From Ensifer sp. PDNC004 (lineage in GTDB: Bacteria; Pseudomonadota; Alphaproteobacteria; Rhizobiales; Rhizobiaceae), in assembly GCF_016919405.1 (NCBI RefSeq), contig NZ_CP070353.1, positions 3,100,501-3,164,500 of the forward strand: DNA of 64,000 bases, in the 5' to 3' direction. The position numbers were made by a program, and so were the translations under genes. Of this stretch, positions 9,832 to 64,000 are shown piece after piece. The stretch's first letter is position 1, and each line of letters opens with the position of its first letter. The notes beneath the pieces were generated by a model. The model searched no databases, was not told the DNA's origin, and worked only from the letters and a program-made list of their open reading frames with translations.

Positions 9832-10082
9832 GATTCTCATCCCTTGGGCACTCGTTTCGTCTCAGCTTTAGGGGAGAAGCCCGTCAGGACGCAATCTCAC
9901 AGGCGGCGAGGCCAGCCAAAAACGCGGCATTTCCGGGCTTTGCGGGGGGTCTCCCAAAAAATATTCGATTTCTCGTCATTTCCCTGTTGCATTCCAAAAT
10001 CGCTTAGGCCATATACCGCCCGTCGCCGCAAGACAGCGCCGACGCCACGGTCCACCGACTACCCCCGGACCTTGGATGATGA

Positions 10083-10157
10083 GCGGGTGTAGCTCAGGGG
10101 TAGAGCACAACCTTGCCAAGGTTGGGGTCGGGCGTTCGAATCGCCTCACCCGCTCCA
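10083..10157 (+). tRNA. tRNA-Gly (GCC)
   Basis: Complete cloverleaf: acceptor GCGGGTG/CACCCGC, D-arm GCTCAGGGGTAGAGC, anticodon loop TTGCCAA with GCC at 10115-10117, T-arm GGCGTTCGAATCGCC, discriminator T and encoded CCA. It is the integration site of the island that follows; its 3' 45 bp are duplicated at 29140-29184. Confidence 0.97.
10113..10157 (+). other. attL: 45-bp direct repeat within tRNA-Gly
   Basis: From TTGCCAAGGTT through the CCA end of the tRNA, identical to 29140-29184. The repeat begins at the anticodon loop, a usual crossover region for tyrosine integrases. The tRNA is left intact. Confidence 0.93.
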
Positions 10158-32733: not shown

Positions 32734-32760
32734 CCTCGGAAATCCAACTTTCCTCGGCCC

Positions 32761-32811
32761 TTTAGCGACTTGTTTAACGTGGCTGCAAGCCGGCCGGCCA
32801 AATCACCACAG
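32761..32811 (-). promoter_or_regulatory. SAM-II riboswitch (metA motif)
   Basis: Reading the minus strand: GTGGTGATTTGGCC, CGGCTTGCAGCCACG, TTAAACAAGTCGCTAAA. These are the conserved SAM-II blocks (the GGTGATTTG start, the CTTGCAGCCAC hairpin/pseudoknot region and the terminal GCTAAA) in order and spacing. SAM binding should repress metA. Confidence 0.93.
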
Positions 32812-32867
32812 GGAATTTGATAGCGCGAGTGGGCCGCGGGGGTCAAGAAAAACGATTCGGGGTGTCG

Positions 32868-59364: not shown

Positions 59365-60972
59365 CTAGTTCCGCCTTCTTATATCGTCGAACCTGATGTC
59401 GAAGCGCGCCAGGTATTTGCTCAGGCGGTCGGCGTCGTTGCTGCTTTTCTTTTCCAGCCGTGACTGAGCGAACAGGGCGCGGCCGGCGGCGCTGAGCGTC
59501 GGGTGTTCGCGGCAGGCGCGGATCACGGCCGAGAGTTGGACGGCGTCGAAGCGGTCGAGGCGGGCGGCGGCTTCCGTGCCGAGCAGGTCCTGAAGGGTCG
59601 CATCGTCTGCGTCCTTGACCGACGACGTGTGCCAGAACGCGTTCAGGCGTTGGACTTCGTCATCGACGACATCAGTCGTGATGCGTCCGTGTGGCGCCAG
59701 CGTCGCCATCCGGGTGACGGAGGCCGAGAGGTCGCGGAAATTGGCACTCCAGACGCCCTGAGGCCCGGTTGCAAAGGCCAGATAGCGTTCGCGGGCTTCC
59801 TTGTTGAAGGTGATGTTCTCGCCCTCGCGTTCGAGAAAGCGTTTCAGTTCGAACTCCAGATTGGGCTCTATGTCCTCCCGGCGTTCGCGCAGGGCCGGCA
59901 GTCGAAATGTCCAGAGATTGAGGCGCGCATAGAGGTCTTCGCGGAATCTCCCCTTGGCGACCTCCGCGCCGAGGTCGCGGTTGGTGCCGGCGAGAAGCTG
60001 GAAGTCCGCGGAAACTTCGCGGTCCGCGCCGACCGGCAGAAAGCGTTTCTCCTCGATCGCCCGCAGGCACATTGCCTGTTCGTCGAGGCCGAGTTCGCCG
60101 ATCTCGTCGAGGAAGAGCACGCCCTGGTCCGCCGATTTGAGCAGGCCGGCCCGTTCGGTGGCTGCCCCCGTGAAGGCGCCTTTCACGTGCCCGAATAGGG
60201 TCGACATCGCCTGGTCGCCCCTGAGTGTTGCACAATTGACTTCGACGAAGGCGCCGCTGGCCTTCCGCTGCGATTTCTTGAGTTCATAGATACGGCGCGC
60301 GAGCTGCGATTTTCCGGCGCCGGTCGGTCCGGTCAGCAAGACGGGCGCGGTCGAGCGGATCGCCACGCGTTCGATTTCGTCGATCATCCGGTTGAAGGCG
60401 ACATTGCGGGTCGAGATGCCCGATTTCAGGAAAGAGGCGGCGTCCTCACGTTCCGAGGCAAAGCGTTTGGCGATCTCGTCGTAGCGCGACAGGTCCAGGT
60501 CGATGATCCGGTGCGTGCCGGCGAAATCCTGGCCCGGCTCGCGGTCGCGCGGTGGCGACAGTTGAAGCAGTCGGGCGGGAATGATGCGGGCCTCGGTCAG
60601 CAGGAACCAGCAGATCTGCGCCACGTGCGTGCCGGTGGTGATGTTGATGAGATAGTCTTCGGCATCCGGGTCGAAGGCATAGCTGCGGGCAAAGTCCCTG
60701 AGGCTGGTATAGACCTCCGAGAAATCCCAGGGATCTCGGAAATTGATGGTGTTGCTGCGCACTTGCGTGGCCGGCGATACGGTTTCGATGTCGCCGATGA
60801 TCCGCCGGGCCAGCGGCGAGGCGTGATTGTCGTGGATCAGTTCCAGTCGGTCGACGAAAAGCCCGGGCTGTTGGCATAGCCCGACATTCGGCCGCCACCG
60901 GTTCCAGCGGTCCTCCCATTTGCCCATGTCGAGCGTGGTTCCCAGGATGCTGATGACGACACGACGTTTCAT
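59365..60972 (-). CDS. rtcR: RtcR, sigma54-dependent regulator of RNA repair
   Basis: Enhancer-binding protein that switches on the rtc RNA-repair genes. 535 residues: an N-terminal CARF-like sensor (about 1-180, MKRRVVISILGTTLD ... INITTGTHVAQICWFLLTEARI), then the AAA+ domain with Walker A LTGPTGAGKS (214-222), the sigma54-contacting GAFTGA (265-270) and Walker B GVLFLDEIGELGLDEQ. A C-terminal DNA-binding region follows. Family members are thought to bind RNA ends or cyclic oligonucleotides through the CARF part. Divergent from rsr. Confidence 0.95.
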   Translation of the reverse strand: MKRRVVISILGTTLDMGKWEDRWNRWRPNVGLCQQPGLFVDRLELIHDNHASPLARRIIGDIETVSPATQVRSNTINFRDPWDFSEVYTSLRDFARSYAFDPDAEDYLINITTGTHVAQICWFLLTEARIIPARLLQLSPPRDREPGQDFAGTHRIIDLDLSRYDEIAKRFASEREDAASFLKSGISTRNVAFNRMIDEIERVAIRSTAPVLLTGPTGAGKSQLARRIYELKKSQRKASGAFVEVNCATLRGDQAMSTLFGHVKGAFTGAATERAGLLKSADQGVLFLDEIGELGLDEQAMCLRAIEEKRFLPVGADREVSADFQLLAGTNRDLGAEVAKGRFREDLYARLNLWTFRLPALRERREDIEPNLEFELKRFLEREGENITFNKEARERYLAFATGPQGVWSANFRDLSASVTRMATLAPHGRITTDVVDDEVQRLNAFWHTSSVKDADDATLQDLLGTEAAARLDRFDAVQLSAVIRACREHPTLSAAGRALFAQSRLEKKSSNDADRLSKYLARFDIRFDDIRRRN

Positions 60973-61129: not shown

Positions 61130-61145
61130 TGGCACGCCTCTTGAA
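61130..61145 (+). promoter_or_regulatory. Sigma54 promoter of rsr-Y RNAs-rtcB
   Basis: TGGCACG-CCTC-TTGAA fits the -24/-12 consensus. Transcription should start near 61156, so ATG 61157 would be leaderless, and ATG 61181 with its AAGAGGTG site is the true rsr start. Confidence 0.88.
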
Positions 61146-61180
61146 TTGTATCTGGCATGAAACAACCAAGAGGTGCCGTC

Positions 61181-62737
61181 ATGGTCAACAAGGCGATCTT
61201 CAAGACCTATCTCGGAAAATTGCTTCCGGGCACGGACACGAAAAACCACGCAGCCGCGCCGGCCTATAGGCTGACCCCGCGCGAAGCGCTGGCGCAGTAT
61301 GCGGTGACGGGAACCTTCAACGGCACGTTTTACGCCGACGGCGCAGAACAGCTCGAGGCGGTCAGGGCGCTGGCAGTCGAGGTCGAGCCGGATTTCGTGG
61401 CCAAGGTGGCAGTCTATGCCGCCGAGCGTGGTCACATGAAGGATATGCCGGTGATGCTGCTGGCCCTGCTTTCGAGCCTGCAAAGCGACGTCTTTGCCCG
61501 CGCATTCCCGCGTGTGGTCAAGAGCGGCAAGATGCTGCGCGGCTTCGTACAGGTGATGCGTTCGGGCGCGGCAGGGCGCAAGTCGCTCGGCACTCGGCCG
61601 AAGAAGGCGGTGCAGGCCTGGCTGGAGCACGCCAGCACGATGCAGGTCCTCGGGGCAATGGTGGGCAACGATCCATCCTTGGCCGATGTGATCCGTATGG
61701 TTCACCCGCGGCCGGCCACGCCGGAGCGACAGGCGTTCTATGCCTGGGCGCTCGGCAAGCCGTACGATTACGTGGCGCTGCCGGACGTGGTGAAAGCTCT
61801 GCAGGCCTTCAGGCGCGACCAGACCCAGCCGCTGCCGGACGTTCCGTTCCAGTTGCTGACGTCTCTTGCCCTGACGCGGGAGCATTGGGTCGAGATCGCA
61901 GCCAAGGGCGGCTGGCAGATGCTGCGGCAGAACCTCAACACCTTCGCGCGCAACGGCGTGTTCGAGGTGGAAGGGGTCGCCGAGGCGATCGCTCGGCGCC
62001 TGGCGGATCCGGACGAGATCCATAGGTCGAAGGTCTTCCCCTATCAGTTGATGATGGCGTGGAAGATGGTCGACGGTCAGGTGCCGGAAGTCGTGCGAGA
62101 CGCATTGCAGGATGCGATGGACATCGCCATCGGCAATGTGCCGTCGCTCGCCGGCCATGTGGTGTTGTGCCCGGATGTTTCCGGCTCGATGGGTTCGTCC
62201 GTGACCGGCTACCGCCAGGGCGCCACATCCGCGGTTCGTTGCATCGACGTTGCCGCGCTGATGACGGCCGCATTCCTGCAGCGCAACCCGCAAGCACGCG
62301 TGTTGCCGTTCGGGAACAACGTGGTGAACGTCAGCCTCAACCGGCGAGACACGGTCATGACCAATGCCGAGAAACTGGTTGCCGTCGGCGGTGGCGGAAC
62401 GAACTGCTCCGCACCGTTGAGGGCGCTCGCAAATGAGAAGGTCAAGGTCGATCTCGCCGTTTTCATCTCGGACAACGAATCCTGGGTGGATGCGACCCGG
62501 GGCGGTCAGGCAACGGCCGTCATGGCGGAATGGGCAAGGATCAAGCGGGTCAACCCGGCTGCAAAGCTGGTCTGCCTCGACATCCAGCCCTATGCGACGA
62601 CGCAGGCGCCGACGCGGGACGACGTTCTCAACATCGGCGGCTTCTCGGATGCCGTCTATGGGGTCATCGCGTCCTTTGCCGCCGGCACCAACGGAGCGGA
62701 CGGCTGGGTGAAAACCATCGAGGCGACCGAACTTTAA
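61181..62737 (+). CDS. rsr: Ro60 orthologue Rsr (TROVE domain RNA-binding protein)
   Basis: Ring-shaped RNA-binding protein that holds misfolded RNA and Y RNA; in Deinococcus it feeds RNA to PNPase. 518 residues: TROVE HEAT-repeat ring (about 1-320) and a VWA domain with an intact MIDAS: PDVSGSMGSS (from residue 331), the Thr in GGGGTNCSAPL, and Asp in FISDNESWVD. Start ATG 61181 is set by AAGAGGTG and the promoter position. Followed directly by the Y-RNA-like array, its likely partner. Confidence 0.95.
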   Translation: MVNKAIFKTYLGKLLPGTDTKNHAAAPAYRLTPREALAQYAVTGTFNGTFYADGAEQLEAVRALAVEVEPDFVAKVAVYAAERGHMKDMPVMLLALLSSLQSDVFARAFPRVVKSGKMLRGFVQVMRSGAAGRKSLGTRPKKAVQAWLEHASTMQVLGAMVGNDPSLADVIRMVHPRPATPERQAFYAWALGKPYDYVALPDVVKALQAFRRDQTQPLPDVPFQLLTSLALTREHWVEIAAKGGWQMLRQNLNTFARNGVFEVEGVAEAIARRLADPDEIHRSKVFPYQLMMAWKMVDGQVPEVVRDALQDAMDIAIGNVPSLAGHVVLCPDVSGSMGSSVTGYRQGATSAVRCIDVAALMTAAFLQRNPQARVLPFGNNVVNVSLNRRDTVMTNAEKLVAVGGGGTNCSAPLRALANEKVKVDLAVFISDNESWVDATRGGQATAVMAEWARIKRVNPAAKLVCLDIQPYATTQAPTRDDVLNIGGFSDAVYGVIASFAAGTNGADGWVKTIEATEL

Positions 62738-62750
62738 AAACAAGGCAATA

Positions 62751-62779
62751 CCCTCGCGCCGCCGTGAACGGCGCGGGGG
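62751..62779 (+). promoter_or_regulatory. GC-rich hairpin between rsr and the first Y RNA
   Basis: 11-bp stem CCCTCGCGCCG/CGGCGCGGGGG with a 7-nt loop, 13 bp after the rsr stop. No T-tract, so it is probably a partial terminator, mRNA 3' protector or processing site. Confidence 0.6.
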
Positions 62780-62918
62780 ACCGTGACGAATGCCGGTTGA
62801 AACTACAGATCGTTAATCTCCAGGTCGCGGGTTCAAATCCCGTCGGATCCCCCACTTTGTGGATCCGTAGCTCAGCGGATAGAGCAGGACGTTTCACCAC
62901 ACCTCGTCGTCACGGACC
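62778..62918 (+). ncRNA. Y RNA 1 with permuted tRNA-like domain (YrlA-like)
   Basis: Outer Ro-type stem CCGTGACGA (62781-62789) with TCGTCACGG (62907-62915), carrying GACGAATG, the GNCGAAN(0-1)G signature of bacterial Y RNAs. An inner stem GAAAC (62799-62803)/GTTTC (62891-62895) leads to a tRNA-like module in permuted order: T-arm GCGGG-TTCAAAT-CCCGT (62827-62843), acceptor CGGATCC (62844-62850), loop starting CCCA, acceptor GGATCCG (62861-62867), TA, then D-arm GCTCAGCGGATAGAGC (62870-62885). All seven acceptor pairs match. It is co-oriented with rsr and rtcB. An intact tRNA is excluded by the order of parts. Confidence 0.88.
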
Positions 62919-62920
62919 AG

Positions 62921-63031
62921 AGATATGGCGAATGCAAGAGGAACTACATGGCCGCGGCAGGTTCGAATCCTGCAAGGGATCACGCATCCCTTCGGTAGCG
63001 GGGCGTTTCTCAATCACTTGTCGCCATAGCC
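62921..63031 (+). ncRNA. Y RNA 2 with T-arm
   Basis: Outer stem TATGGCGA (62924-62931)/TCGCCATA (63021-63028) with motif GGCGAATG. Inner stem GAGGAAC (62938-62944)/GTTTCTC (63005-63011). Enclosed: T-arm GCAGG-TTCGAAT-CCTGC (62957-62973) and a 7-bp acceptor-like hairpin AAGGGAT/ATCCCTT closed by CACGC. The D-arm is reduced to a short GGTAGCGG remnant. Confidence 0.85.
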
Positions 63032-63034
63032 GAA

Positions 63035-63168
63035 CGCAGCGGCGAATGCCGGACGGAACTACATCGCCACCACAACTGGATGGCCTGGCAGGTTCGACTC
63101 CTCCTCGGCATACGCTCTCTGGCACGAGCGGGGCCATCCGGTTTCGTCCACCCTCGTCGCCGCTGCAT
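63035..63168 (+). ncRNA. Y RNA 3 with degenerate T-arm
   Basis: Outer stem GCAGCGGCGA (63036-63045)/TCGCCGCTGC (63157-63166), motif GGCGAATG. Inner stem GGACGGAAC (63051-63059)/GTTTCGTCC (63141-63149), then GGATGGCC (63078-63085)/GGCCATCC (63132-63139). A T-arm-like GCAGG-TTCGACT-CCTCC (63088-63104) has one mismatch; an imperfect CTCG...CGAG stem follows. No D-arm. Confidence 0.83.
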
Positions 63169-63202
63169 GGCTTTCAATGACACCCGCCTGGCGGGCGTGA
63201 AA

Positions 63203-63342
63203 TGCCCGGCGAATGCCGGCAGGACTACAGGTAGAGCGGCTCGCCGGTTTCGGCGGGCAGGTCGGATGTTCAAGTCATCCCGCTTCCCCGAAAGGCGGAG
63301 CGTAGCTCAGCAAACCGTCCTGCCAAAACTCGTCGCCGGGAG
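63203..63342 (+). ncRNA. Y RNA 4 with T-arm and partial D-arm
   Basis: Outer stem CCCGGCGA (63205-63212)/TCGCCGGG (63333-63340), motif GGCGAATG. Inner stem GGCAGGAC (63218-63225)/GTCCTGCC (63317-63324). Inside: an extra 8-bp hairpin GCTCGCCG/CGGCGGGC (63239-63258), T-arm GGATG-TTCAAGT-CATCC (63264-63280), acceptor-like CGCTTC/GGAGCG, and GTAGCTCAGCA recalling a D-arm 5' half. Confidence 0.85.
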
Positions 63343-63344
63343 AC

Positions 63345-63445
63345 GGCCCACGGCGAATGCCGCTGGAGACACCATTGAGTCGCATCGCGCCACGACCGTG
63401 GAATGCGTGCGGCAATGTCTCCGGCCTACGCTTGTCGCTTGGGGA
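63345..63445 (+). ncRNA. Y RNA 5, lacking a tRNA-like T-arm
   Basis: Motif GGCGAATG (63352-63359). The outer stem is weak (GCGA/TCGC plus CCC/GGG). The inner stem GGAGACA (63365-63371)/TGTCTCC (63416-63422) is perfect. The interior has a CCACG-AC-CGTGG hairpin but no TTC loop. The 3' strand CTTGTCG matches the other four units. It ends 5-45 bp before the possible rtcB starts. Confidence 0.65.
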
Positions 63446-63491
63446 CTAGATGAACACAGAGCACAGAAGGGCTGCGAACGCAGAAAAGAAG

Positions 63492-64000
63492 ATGACCGAG
63501 ATAATGAGCGGACAGGATTTGATCGATGCCGGCATGAGCCAGGGCAAGTGGTTTCGCGATGCGCTGGACGCCGCCAACAGGGCGCTCGGCGCCGGCAGCT
63601 CCATGACCGATGCGCTGGAAATCGCTCGCGGCTATCAGCCGGGGCCGACCCTGCCGCTGAAGGCCGCCAACGACGTGCCGATCCACATGAACATCCGCGC
63701 CGAGAACGCCCACGAACAGGAGAATATCGAAAAGGTGCGCGCGACCATGCGCGAGCTCGCCCGCACGCCAGTCGTACGGTCGGCGGCGATCATGCCTGAC
63801 GCCTGCCCGTCCGGACCCGTCGGAACGATCCCGGTTGGCGGCGTGGTCGCGTCCGAAGCGATCCATCCGGGCATGCATTCGGCCGATATCTGCTGCTCGA
63901 TGGCGATCTCCATCTTTCCGGGCGTGGCCCCGAAGGCGTTGCTCGATGCCGTGCATGCCGTGACGCATTTCGGTCCGGGTGGTCGTCCGCGCGGCTCCCA
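63492..64000 (+). CDS. rtcB: RtcB-family RNA ligase (partial, continues past window)
   Basis: Start of a GTP/Mn-dependent RNA ligase that seals 2',3'-cyclic phosphate or 3'-phosphate ends to 5'-OH. The visible 169 residues include MTEIMSGQDLIDAG, MPDACPSGPVGTIPVGGVVASE and IHPGMHSADICCSMA. The D-x-x-C of ADICCS (Asp132, Cys135) aligns with the metal-binding DIGCGM of E. coli RtcB, so this is a divergent branch. Start may be ATG 63492, 63504 or 63450. No stop occurs before 64000. Last visible gene of the rsr-Y RNA-rtcB unit. Confidence 0.93.
   Translation, partial: MTEIMSGQDLIDAGMSQGKWFRDALDAANRALGAGSSMTDALEIARGYQPGPTLPLKAANDVPIHMNIRAENAHEQENIEKVRATMRELARTPVVRSAAIMPDACPSGPVGTIPVGGVVASEAIHPGMHSADICCSMAISIFPGVAPKALLDAVHAVTHFGPGGRPRGS

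Follow-up and report, generated by a model that had tools for sequence, protein, structure and literature searches.

Five Y-RNA-like genes, not five copies of one gene, are encoded in the window (the whole stretch of 64,000 nucleotides of Ensifer sp. PDNC004 that was analysed), and four of the five predicted RNAs copy different subsets of tRNA. The array (62781-63444) lies between rsr, the gene of a Ro60 orthologue, and rtcB, and it probably constitutes an ordered set of five Y RNAs in an rtcR/rsr-Y-rtcB repair operon, in which the RNAs would present different tRNA parts and act as tethers or decoys. A preliminary description of this DNA had placed Y-RNA-like genes between rsr and rtcB, and the flanking protein domains, the density of the 5' motif and alignments to the YrlA family all agree with that placement, as does the presence of rtcR upstream.

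The rsr gene (61157-62737, plus strand) encodes a protein with vWA_Ro60 and TROVE domains (Pfam, E 2e-19 and 6e-7) that matches PDB 2nvo, a structure carrying the name Rsr (E 4e-25); the TROVE-domain protein structures 9l5y and 9kop also match it (E 4.5e-15). Its open reading frame opens at 61157, but a start at 61181 suits the promoter and the relatives better (alignment A1). The putative promoter is a sigma-54-like -24/-12 element (TGGCACGCCTCTTGAA, 61130-61145, plus strand) recognised from its sequence, and 60 of 90 loci have a match to TGGYAY-N4-6-TTGNW upstream of rsr, a raw count with no chance control. The divergent rtcR gene (59365-60972, minus strand) encodes a sigma-54 activator with an RtcR sensor domain (Pfam RtcR, E 8e-80; Sigma54_activat, E 2e-50), whereas rsr, the Y array and rtcB share one strand. 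The rtcB gene, taken from the list of open reading frames (63450-64000 within the window, plus strand; Pfam RtcB, E 4e-29), encodes 485 amino acids and runs past the end of the window to L004:6907. Despite the presence of rtcR, rsr and rtcB, RtcA is absent, the RTC family having no match in the whole genome in a search that found matches in 5 of 14 control genomes, including that of E. coli.

Motifs, folds and orthologous classes of the five units

The 5' motifs are located where the preliminary description had put them, GACGAATG at 62785 and GGCGAATG at 62927, 63041, 63208 and 63352, and the motif GNCGAAUG, present in all five units, agrees with the consensus of the Rfam YrlA family (RF02553). 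On the same strand of 92 loci, the rsr-rtcB spacers (or, alternatively, the first 1-1.3 kb after rsr), 72,628 nt in all, have 353 copies of GNCGAATG versus 46 in 641,419 nt elsewhere, which makes it approximately 68-fold denser between rsr and rtcB. The complementary ends reported for units 1-4 pair as written in perfect outer stems of 9, 8, 10 and 8 bp, giving each of these units a basal stem of GNCGAAUG and a complementary 3' end; this stem is weak in unit 5, which has no clean outer stem and folds as a rod. Single-sequence folds of units 1-5, compared with the mean of 200 dinucleotide shuffles, gave z values of -2.55, -2.23, -3.86, -4.23 and -2.06, those near -2 being modest.

A comparison of the units with Rfam, proposed at the outset, aligned RF02553 to units 1-4 at 58.7, 48.9, 19.2 and 37.2 bits (E 2e-12 to 3e-6 for units 1, 2 and 4, and 0.5 for unit 3), all below the gathering score of 69, and gave no match to unit 5. 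A search of the whole window at the gathering cut-off, which none of the five units reaches, returned zero YrlA and alone would have read as nothing there, and ARAGORN found zero tRNA in the array as it stands. The T-acceptor-D module of tRNA, entered from the anticodon side, is recognised in unit 1; it is without its D arm in unit 2 and without its acceptor in unit 3, is opened elsewhere in unit 4, and has no counterpart in unit 5. Units 3 and 5 are putatively Y-like by motif, fold and orthology only.

Rsr is patchily distributed, being matched in 18 of 297 genomes of a family sample (one of them weakly, at 29%), in none of the four other genomes of the genus, and in 32 of 397 genomes of an order sample, of which three matches are weak (E 1e-14 to 1e-11) and two are in broken pieces; a scan of named genomes for Rsr gave at least 80 loci. 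Of 97 loci, 92 were used after duplicates were dropped (L023, L024, L026, L031 and L032), and three of the 92 are unit-free. Searching for GNCGAATG together with a complementary 3' end, a script detected 343 units in the 92 loci, a count that is approximate because the script overlooks some units and misplaces some ends. The 89 loci with units have a median of 4 and a range of 1-7, so that five is not exceptional.

Louvain clustering of blastn scores, which yields communities and not a tree, placed window units 1-5 in five classes, lettered A-E in window order, that hold 99, 43, 54, 63 and 21 units in 74, 39, 51, 50 and 21 loci, respectively. Counting the window, 12 of the 89 loci that have units show the exact order A-B-C-D-E, and two further loci have ABACDE or ABBCDE; Mesorhizobium has classes A, C and D together with further classes absent from the window. 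The recurrence of separate classes in one order indicates that the paralogues form an ordered set which predates the species compared and did not arise by recent copying, and the preservation of the same set in the same order in some relatives suggests that each RNA may have its own job. The earlier proposal that the copies have diverged and have different partners agrees with the data insofar as the five classes are separately conserved, the partners themselves being conjectural. The covariation of inner stems first put forward had been drawn from a comparison of paralogous units, whereas the valid test lies within each orthologous class, where covariation is found in class D (with controls, described below) and is partial in class C (10 of 31 pairs doubly changed, an uncontrolled count). 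One locus, L087, labelled Mycobacterium sp. KBS0706, has the order GADA and unit lengths as in Inquilinus limosus (L085), and its label may be wrong.

A tRNA cloverleaf opened in the D loop

Sequence comparison showed class D to be a complete tRNA cloverleaf that is circularly permuted, the predicted Ro-binding stem entering via the D loop. Unit 4 (63205-63340, plus strand), assigned by fold, alignment, covariation and a rotation test, runs through the 3' half of the D loop and the 3' strand of the D stem (63230-63237), an arm at the anticodon position (63239-63258), the variable loop (63259-63263), the T arm (63264-63280), the acceptor (63281-63287 with 63296-63302), UA (63303-63304) and the 5' strand of the D stem with A14 and G15 (63305-63310), the D stem itself pairing 63234-63237 with 63305-63308. 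Its minimum-energy fold has four arms (a closing GAGC/GCTC helix, a hairpin, the T arm and a closed acceptor hairpin), the T arm bearing a 7-nt loop, TTCAAGT, and the acceptor hairpin being followed by UA and GCTCAG, the order that results when a tRNA is read as a circle beginning at G18 and ending at G15.

Unguided folding of 59 class D sequences by RNAalifold returned the cloverleaf entered from the D loop, with 23 of 36 pairs doubly changed (alignment A2 contains 59 of the 63 units, L083_399 and L103_354 having no mapped 3' end and L033:2841-2922 and L084:6337-6447 being partial). The proportion of cells paired was 94.4%, versus 79.4 in shuffled alignments, and the covariation was 0.433, versus 0.161 in shuffled alignments and at most 0.150 in slid ones, every measure lying above both controls. 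The D stem is paired in 99.2% of cells and three of its four pairs are doubly changed; one pair has C-G in place of A-U in 13 sequences, and another has A-U in place of G-C in 2; the acceptor is the weakest helix, with 84.1% of cells paired. The core of tRNA is retained after rotation, with U8, A14 and G15 each in 58 of 59 sequences, G18 and C48 in 57, G19 in 56, and, in the T loop, U54 in 54, U55 in 58, and C56 and A58 in 57.

When the modules were rotated so as to open at the acceptor, with the linker cut, ARAGORN called 40 of the 59 as tRNA and left 19 uncalled, versus 0 of 59 native modules, 0 of 295 shuffled ones and 0 of 59 with arms exchanged. The coordinates of the cuts come from the structure under test, a circularity answered in part by a scan of 18 rotation offsets, in which calls were confined to the four offsets at the acceptor (8, 39, 40 and 4 of 59), the remaining 14 giving zero. 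At an ARAGORN threshold of 80% the calls were 55 of 59 for rotated versus 39 of 59 for native modules, and at 70% and below there was no separation. A covariance model built exclusively from rotated modules (R2, 20 of the 59 class D rows) was run on the same genome, where 150 of 4313 candidates were scored and 29 of the 53 tRNA genes matched at E<=0.01; the model's best match in the window is a tRNA-Gly (10082-10154), and it also finds unit 4 itself, in a shifted register.

The permuted order, the cloverleaf and the core nucleotides would also be expected if the class D module were a permuted tRNA gene that is still processed to a working tRNA, but the loop at the anticodon position has 7 nt in only 1 of 59 sequences, N-CCA follows the acceptor in 1 of 43, and the acceptor is closed by short loops such as GAAA (11 of 59) and GCAA (8 of 59), which makes a working tRNA extremely improbable. 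The loop at the anticodon position is instead 4 nt long in 46 of 59 sequences, of the GNRA type in 17 and UNCG in 3. Class D thus appears to have kept the elbow and core of tRNA, with the anticodon loop and both ends gone. Having neither an anticodon loop nor free tRNA ends, it would be uncuttable, and may serve as a tRNA decoy or adaptor during tRNA damage.

A covariance model of native class D (R1) matched 53 of 337 genomes in a sample of the taxonomic class and 75 of 349 in a sample of the phylum at E<=1e-5, but these figures were rejected as counts of class D, since 12 of 18 loci checked proved to be tRNA genes, the other six having Y-RNA motifs. Two R1 loci checked in the Ensifer genome itself were likewise tRNA genes, and of the 14 in all, nine matches extend across two successive tRNA genes and five have a single annotated tRNA gene. 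As an unplanned check of the permuted structure, weak R1 matches often span adjacent tRNA genes, where the permuted order arises from the order of the genes. In view of the tRNA genes among the matches, only those well above 50 bits are trusted, and these are in arrays of Hyphomicrobiales and of one or more further orders of Alphaproteobacteria (G719, 98 bits); in scans that included the phylum sample, trusted matches to class D were seen only in Alphaproteobacteria. A match in G1158 (51.5 bits) folds like class A. In L085, the Rfam tRNA model has a match of 30.1 bits (E 0.07) that spans the junction of a class A and a class D unit.

Elbow, acceptor and internal N-CCA in the other classes

Class A has a T arm, an acceptor and a D arm and, like known YrlA, is entered from the anticodon side. 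In unit 1 (62781-62915, plus strand), the T arm (62827-62843) is followed by the 3' strand of the acceptor (62844-62850), N73 (62851), CCA (62852-62854), a linker (62855-62860), the 5' strand of the acceptor (62861-62867) and the D arm (62870-62885). N-CCA directly after the 7-nt acceptor strand is present in 64 of 96 class A units and absent from 32, and CCA at offsets 0, 2, 3 and 4 occurs in 0, 1, 0 and 1 units, respectively; in class B, N-CCA was found in 1 of 35 units, and it is as scarce in class D (above). The 64 units with N-CCA, from 57 loci, represent 51 combinations of acceptor and linker, but their acceptor strands are of just 14 kinds. Linker lengths after CCA vary between 3 and more than 90 nt, with inserts of 46 nt in L027 and L058 and of up to about 94 nt in others, such as Mesorhizobium-type loci, and the inserts sit exactly at the would-be cut site of RNase P or RNase Z.

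G3:U70 is the alanine identity pair, and among 40 of the genome's 53 tRNAs that were read it is found in only the two tRNA-Ala. It is present in 14 of the 16 class A CCA units with A73 versus 2 of the 48 without (Fisher p 3e-10, shared descent ignored), and the relatives in which A73 and G3:U70 occur together include Bosea, Labrys, Microvirga, Inquilinus and others. Class A could be imagined to carry a latent tRNA 3' end, which RNase P could open at the freely variable linker and which in some relatives would be chargeable with alanine, so that an opened Y RNA would act like tmRNA in charging; the Ro60 ring would then carry tRNA as a kit of separate parts, each class offering one subset of its recognition surfaces. 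Taken jointly, these two ideas are unlikely. The alanine reading does not apply to window unit 1, which has A3:U70 and C73, and this, together with the 32 of 96 units that are without N-CCA, counts against a functional reading of the CCA. The Rfam tmRNA model gives unit 1 a score of 20.3 bits, under its cut-off, and a comparison with the nearest tRNAs, covering 40 of the 53 tRNA genes, identified no clear parent for class A or class D.

Class B has a T arm and an acceptor, which in unit 2 (62924-63028, plus strand) are at 62957-62973 and at 62974-62980 with 62986-62992, a paired D arm being absent. The class is heterogeneous, some members having a full D arm and others none, and in some genomes it is the nearest to the Rfam YrlA model (96.8 bits in L040). 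Class C, represented by unit 3 (63036-63166, plus strand), has a T-loop hairpin (63090-63102) and a D-like arm (63113-63130) with no recognised acceptor stem. In 38 aligned units its T loop, GGTTCGACTCC, is invariant and its arm, CGCTCTCTGGCACGAGCG, has three slightly variable positions (alignment A3 contains 38 of the 54 units and omits two without a mapped end, five short ones and nine near-identical rhizobial ones). In 21 of 54 class C units the 7 nt that follow the T arm have a possible pairing partner (6 pairs or more), but in none does a UR-GNNC junction of acceptor and D arm come after that partner, and on this account, and with the agreement of RNAalifold, class C is read as lacking an acceptor. 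Class E, represented by unit 5 (63348-63444, plus strand), has no T arm in any of its 21 units and no recognised tRNA feature; at least two of its members (L056_913 and L061_484) are truncated.

The differences in tRNA parts might be attributed to decay among drifting tandem duplicates of YrlA, in which only the Rsr-binding stem matters. Such redundancy would accommodate the variable number of units in the 89 loci, the lack of a paired D arm from class B in some genomes, this one included, and the lack of any recognised tRNA part from class E, but it is rather doubtful given that the five classes are separately conserved, with a fixed order in 12 loci, that the stems of class D covary, and that the T loop of class C is invariant and its D-like arm nearly so. 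Because the entire array is on the same strand between rsr and rtcB, with class E directly 5' of rtcB, the units might alternatively act in cis, as a structured spacer for the translation of rtcB or the processing of rsr/rtcB mRNA, and not as free RNAs. This is quite unlikely, considering that every unit carries the predicted Rsr-binding motif, that the tRNA core is conserved in class D, and that three loci (L030, L036 and L037) have rsr and between one and three Y-like units yet lack an rtcB match in the downstream sequence examined, so that a Y array is not strictly accompanied by rtcB.

Relation to known systems and possible roles

Classes A and B add new members to the YrlA kind, known from Salmonella (rsr-yrlBA-rtcBA), with which they share the basal stem of GNCGAAUG, the T/acceptor/D module entered from the anticodon side and the neighbouring rsr and rtcB genes; in 15 relative loci, all 12 matches over the RF02553 gathering score are class A or B units and none are of class C, D or E. 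Where the YrlA consensus has a 3-nt loop, class A has the internal N-CCA and the variable linker, and the locus differs from that of Salmonella in having five classes in order instead of two genes and in the absence of rtcA from the genome. In tmRNA and permuted tRNA genes, acceptor, T and D parts are found in a non-standard order or with parts replaced. The Y-RNA classes resemble them in the reordering or replacement of tRNA parts, and class A in keeping N-CCA, but have no anticodon loop and no coding region, have their ends within the predicted Ro-binding stem, and are broken at other places, class A on the anticodon side and class D in the D loop.

It was reportedly already published by Chen in 2014 that a genome can have several Y RNAs and that at least one of these is tRNA-like. 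A literature search met no permuted Y-RNA classes in titles or the beginnings of abstracts, its coverage excluding the main Y-RNA papers; on that basis the opening in the D loop, the sealed anticodon position, the class without an acceptor, the ordered set and the N-CCA may possibly be new, and class D is not claimed to be unpublished.

In published work (PMC7790460, PMC8394870), cleavage of tRNAs turns on the Salmonella operon, which is induced by 5' tRNA fragments that bind RtcR; a role of competitive inhibitor has been suggested, and in Deinococcus a Y RNA tethers Rsr to PNPase. The Deinococcus RYPER complex (Y RNA/Rsr/PNPase) resembles the present system in its Rsr orthologue and in the idea of a tether, and differs in that several structurally different RNAs are predicted from one array here. 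In the window operon, tRNA cleavage would similarly act as the switch, as in Salmonella (PMC7790460); the basal stems would bind the Rsr ring, and the distal modules would show different tRNA surfaces to tRNA-binding proteins so as to recruit or compete with them, Rsr thereby being loaded after tRNA damage with five exchangeable tRNA-shaped modules. Classes A, C and D have the elbow in common, which points towards a partner that binds it, and a second place of opening, in the D loop, on the same basal stem suggests that the three-dimensional shape of tRNA is under selection. Fragments of Salmonella YrlA were not detected when tRNAs were cut (PMC7790460), which allows a decoy role and does not demonstrate it.

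Among these orthologous RNAs the parts of tRNA are split into elbow, acceptor and CCA (class A), acceptor without a D arm (class B), elbow only (class C), sealed cloverleaf (class D) and none (class E), so that baits of a single class could reveal the tRNA surface on which the Ro particle relies and the enzyme against which it is used. In loci titled as betaproteobacterial (L107, L109, L111, L114, L118 and L119), a Y-like unit of 57-61 nt forms a class of its own, too short for a tRNA part. Apart from the Y array, the window has a SAM-alpha riboswitch (32742-32819, minus strand), which matches its Rfam model at 82.2 bits.
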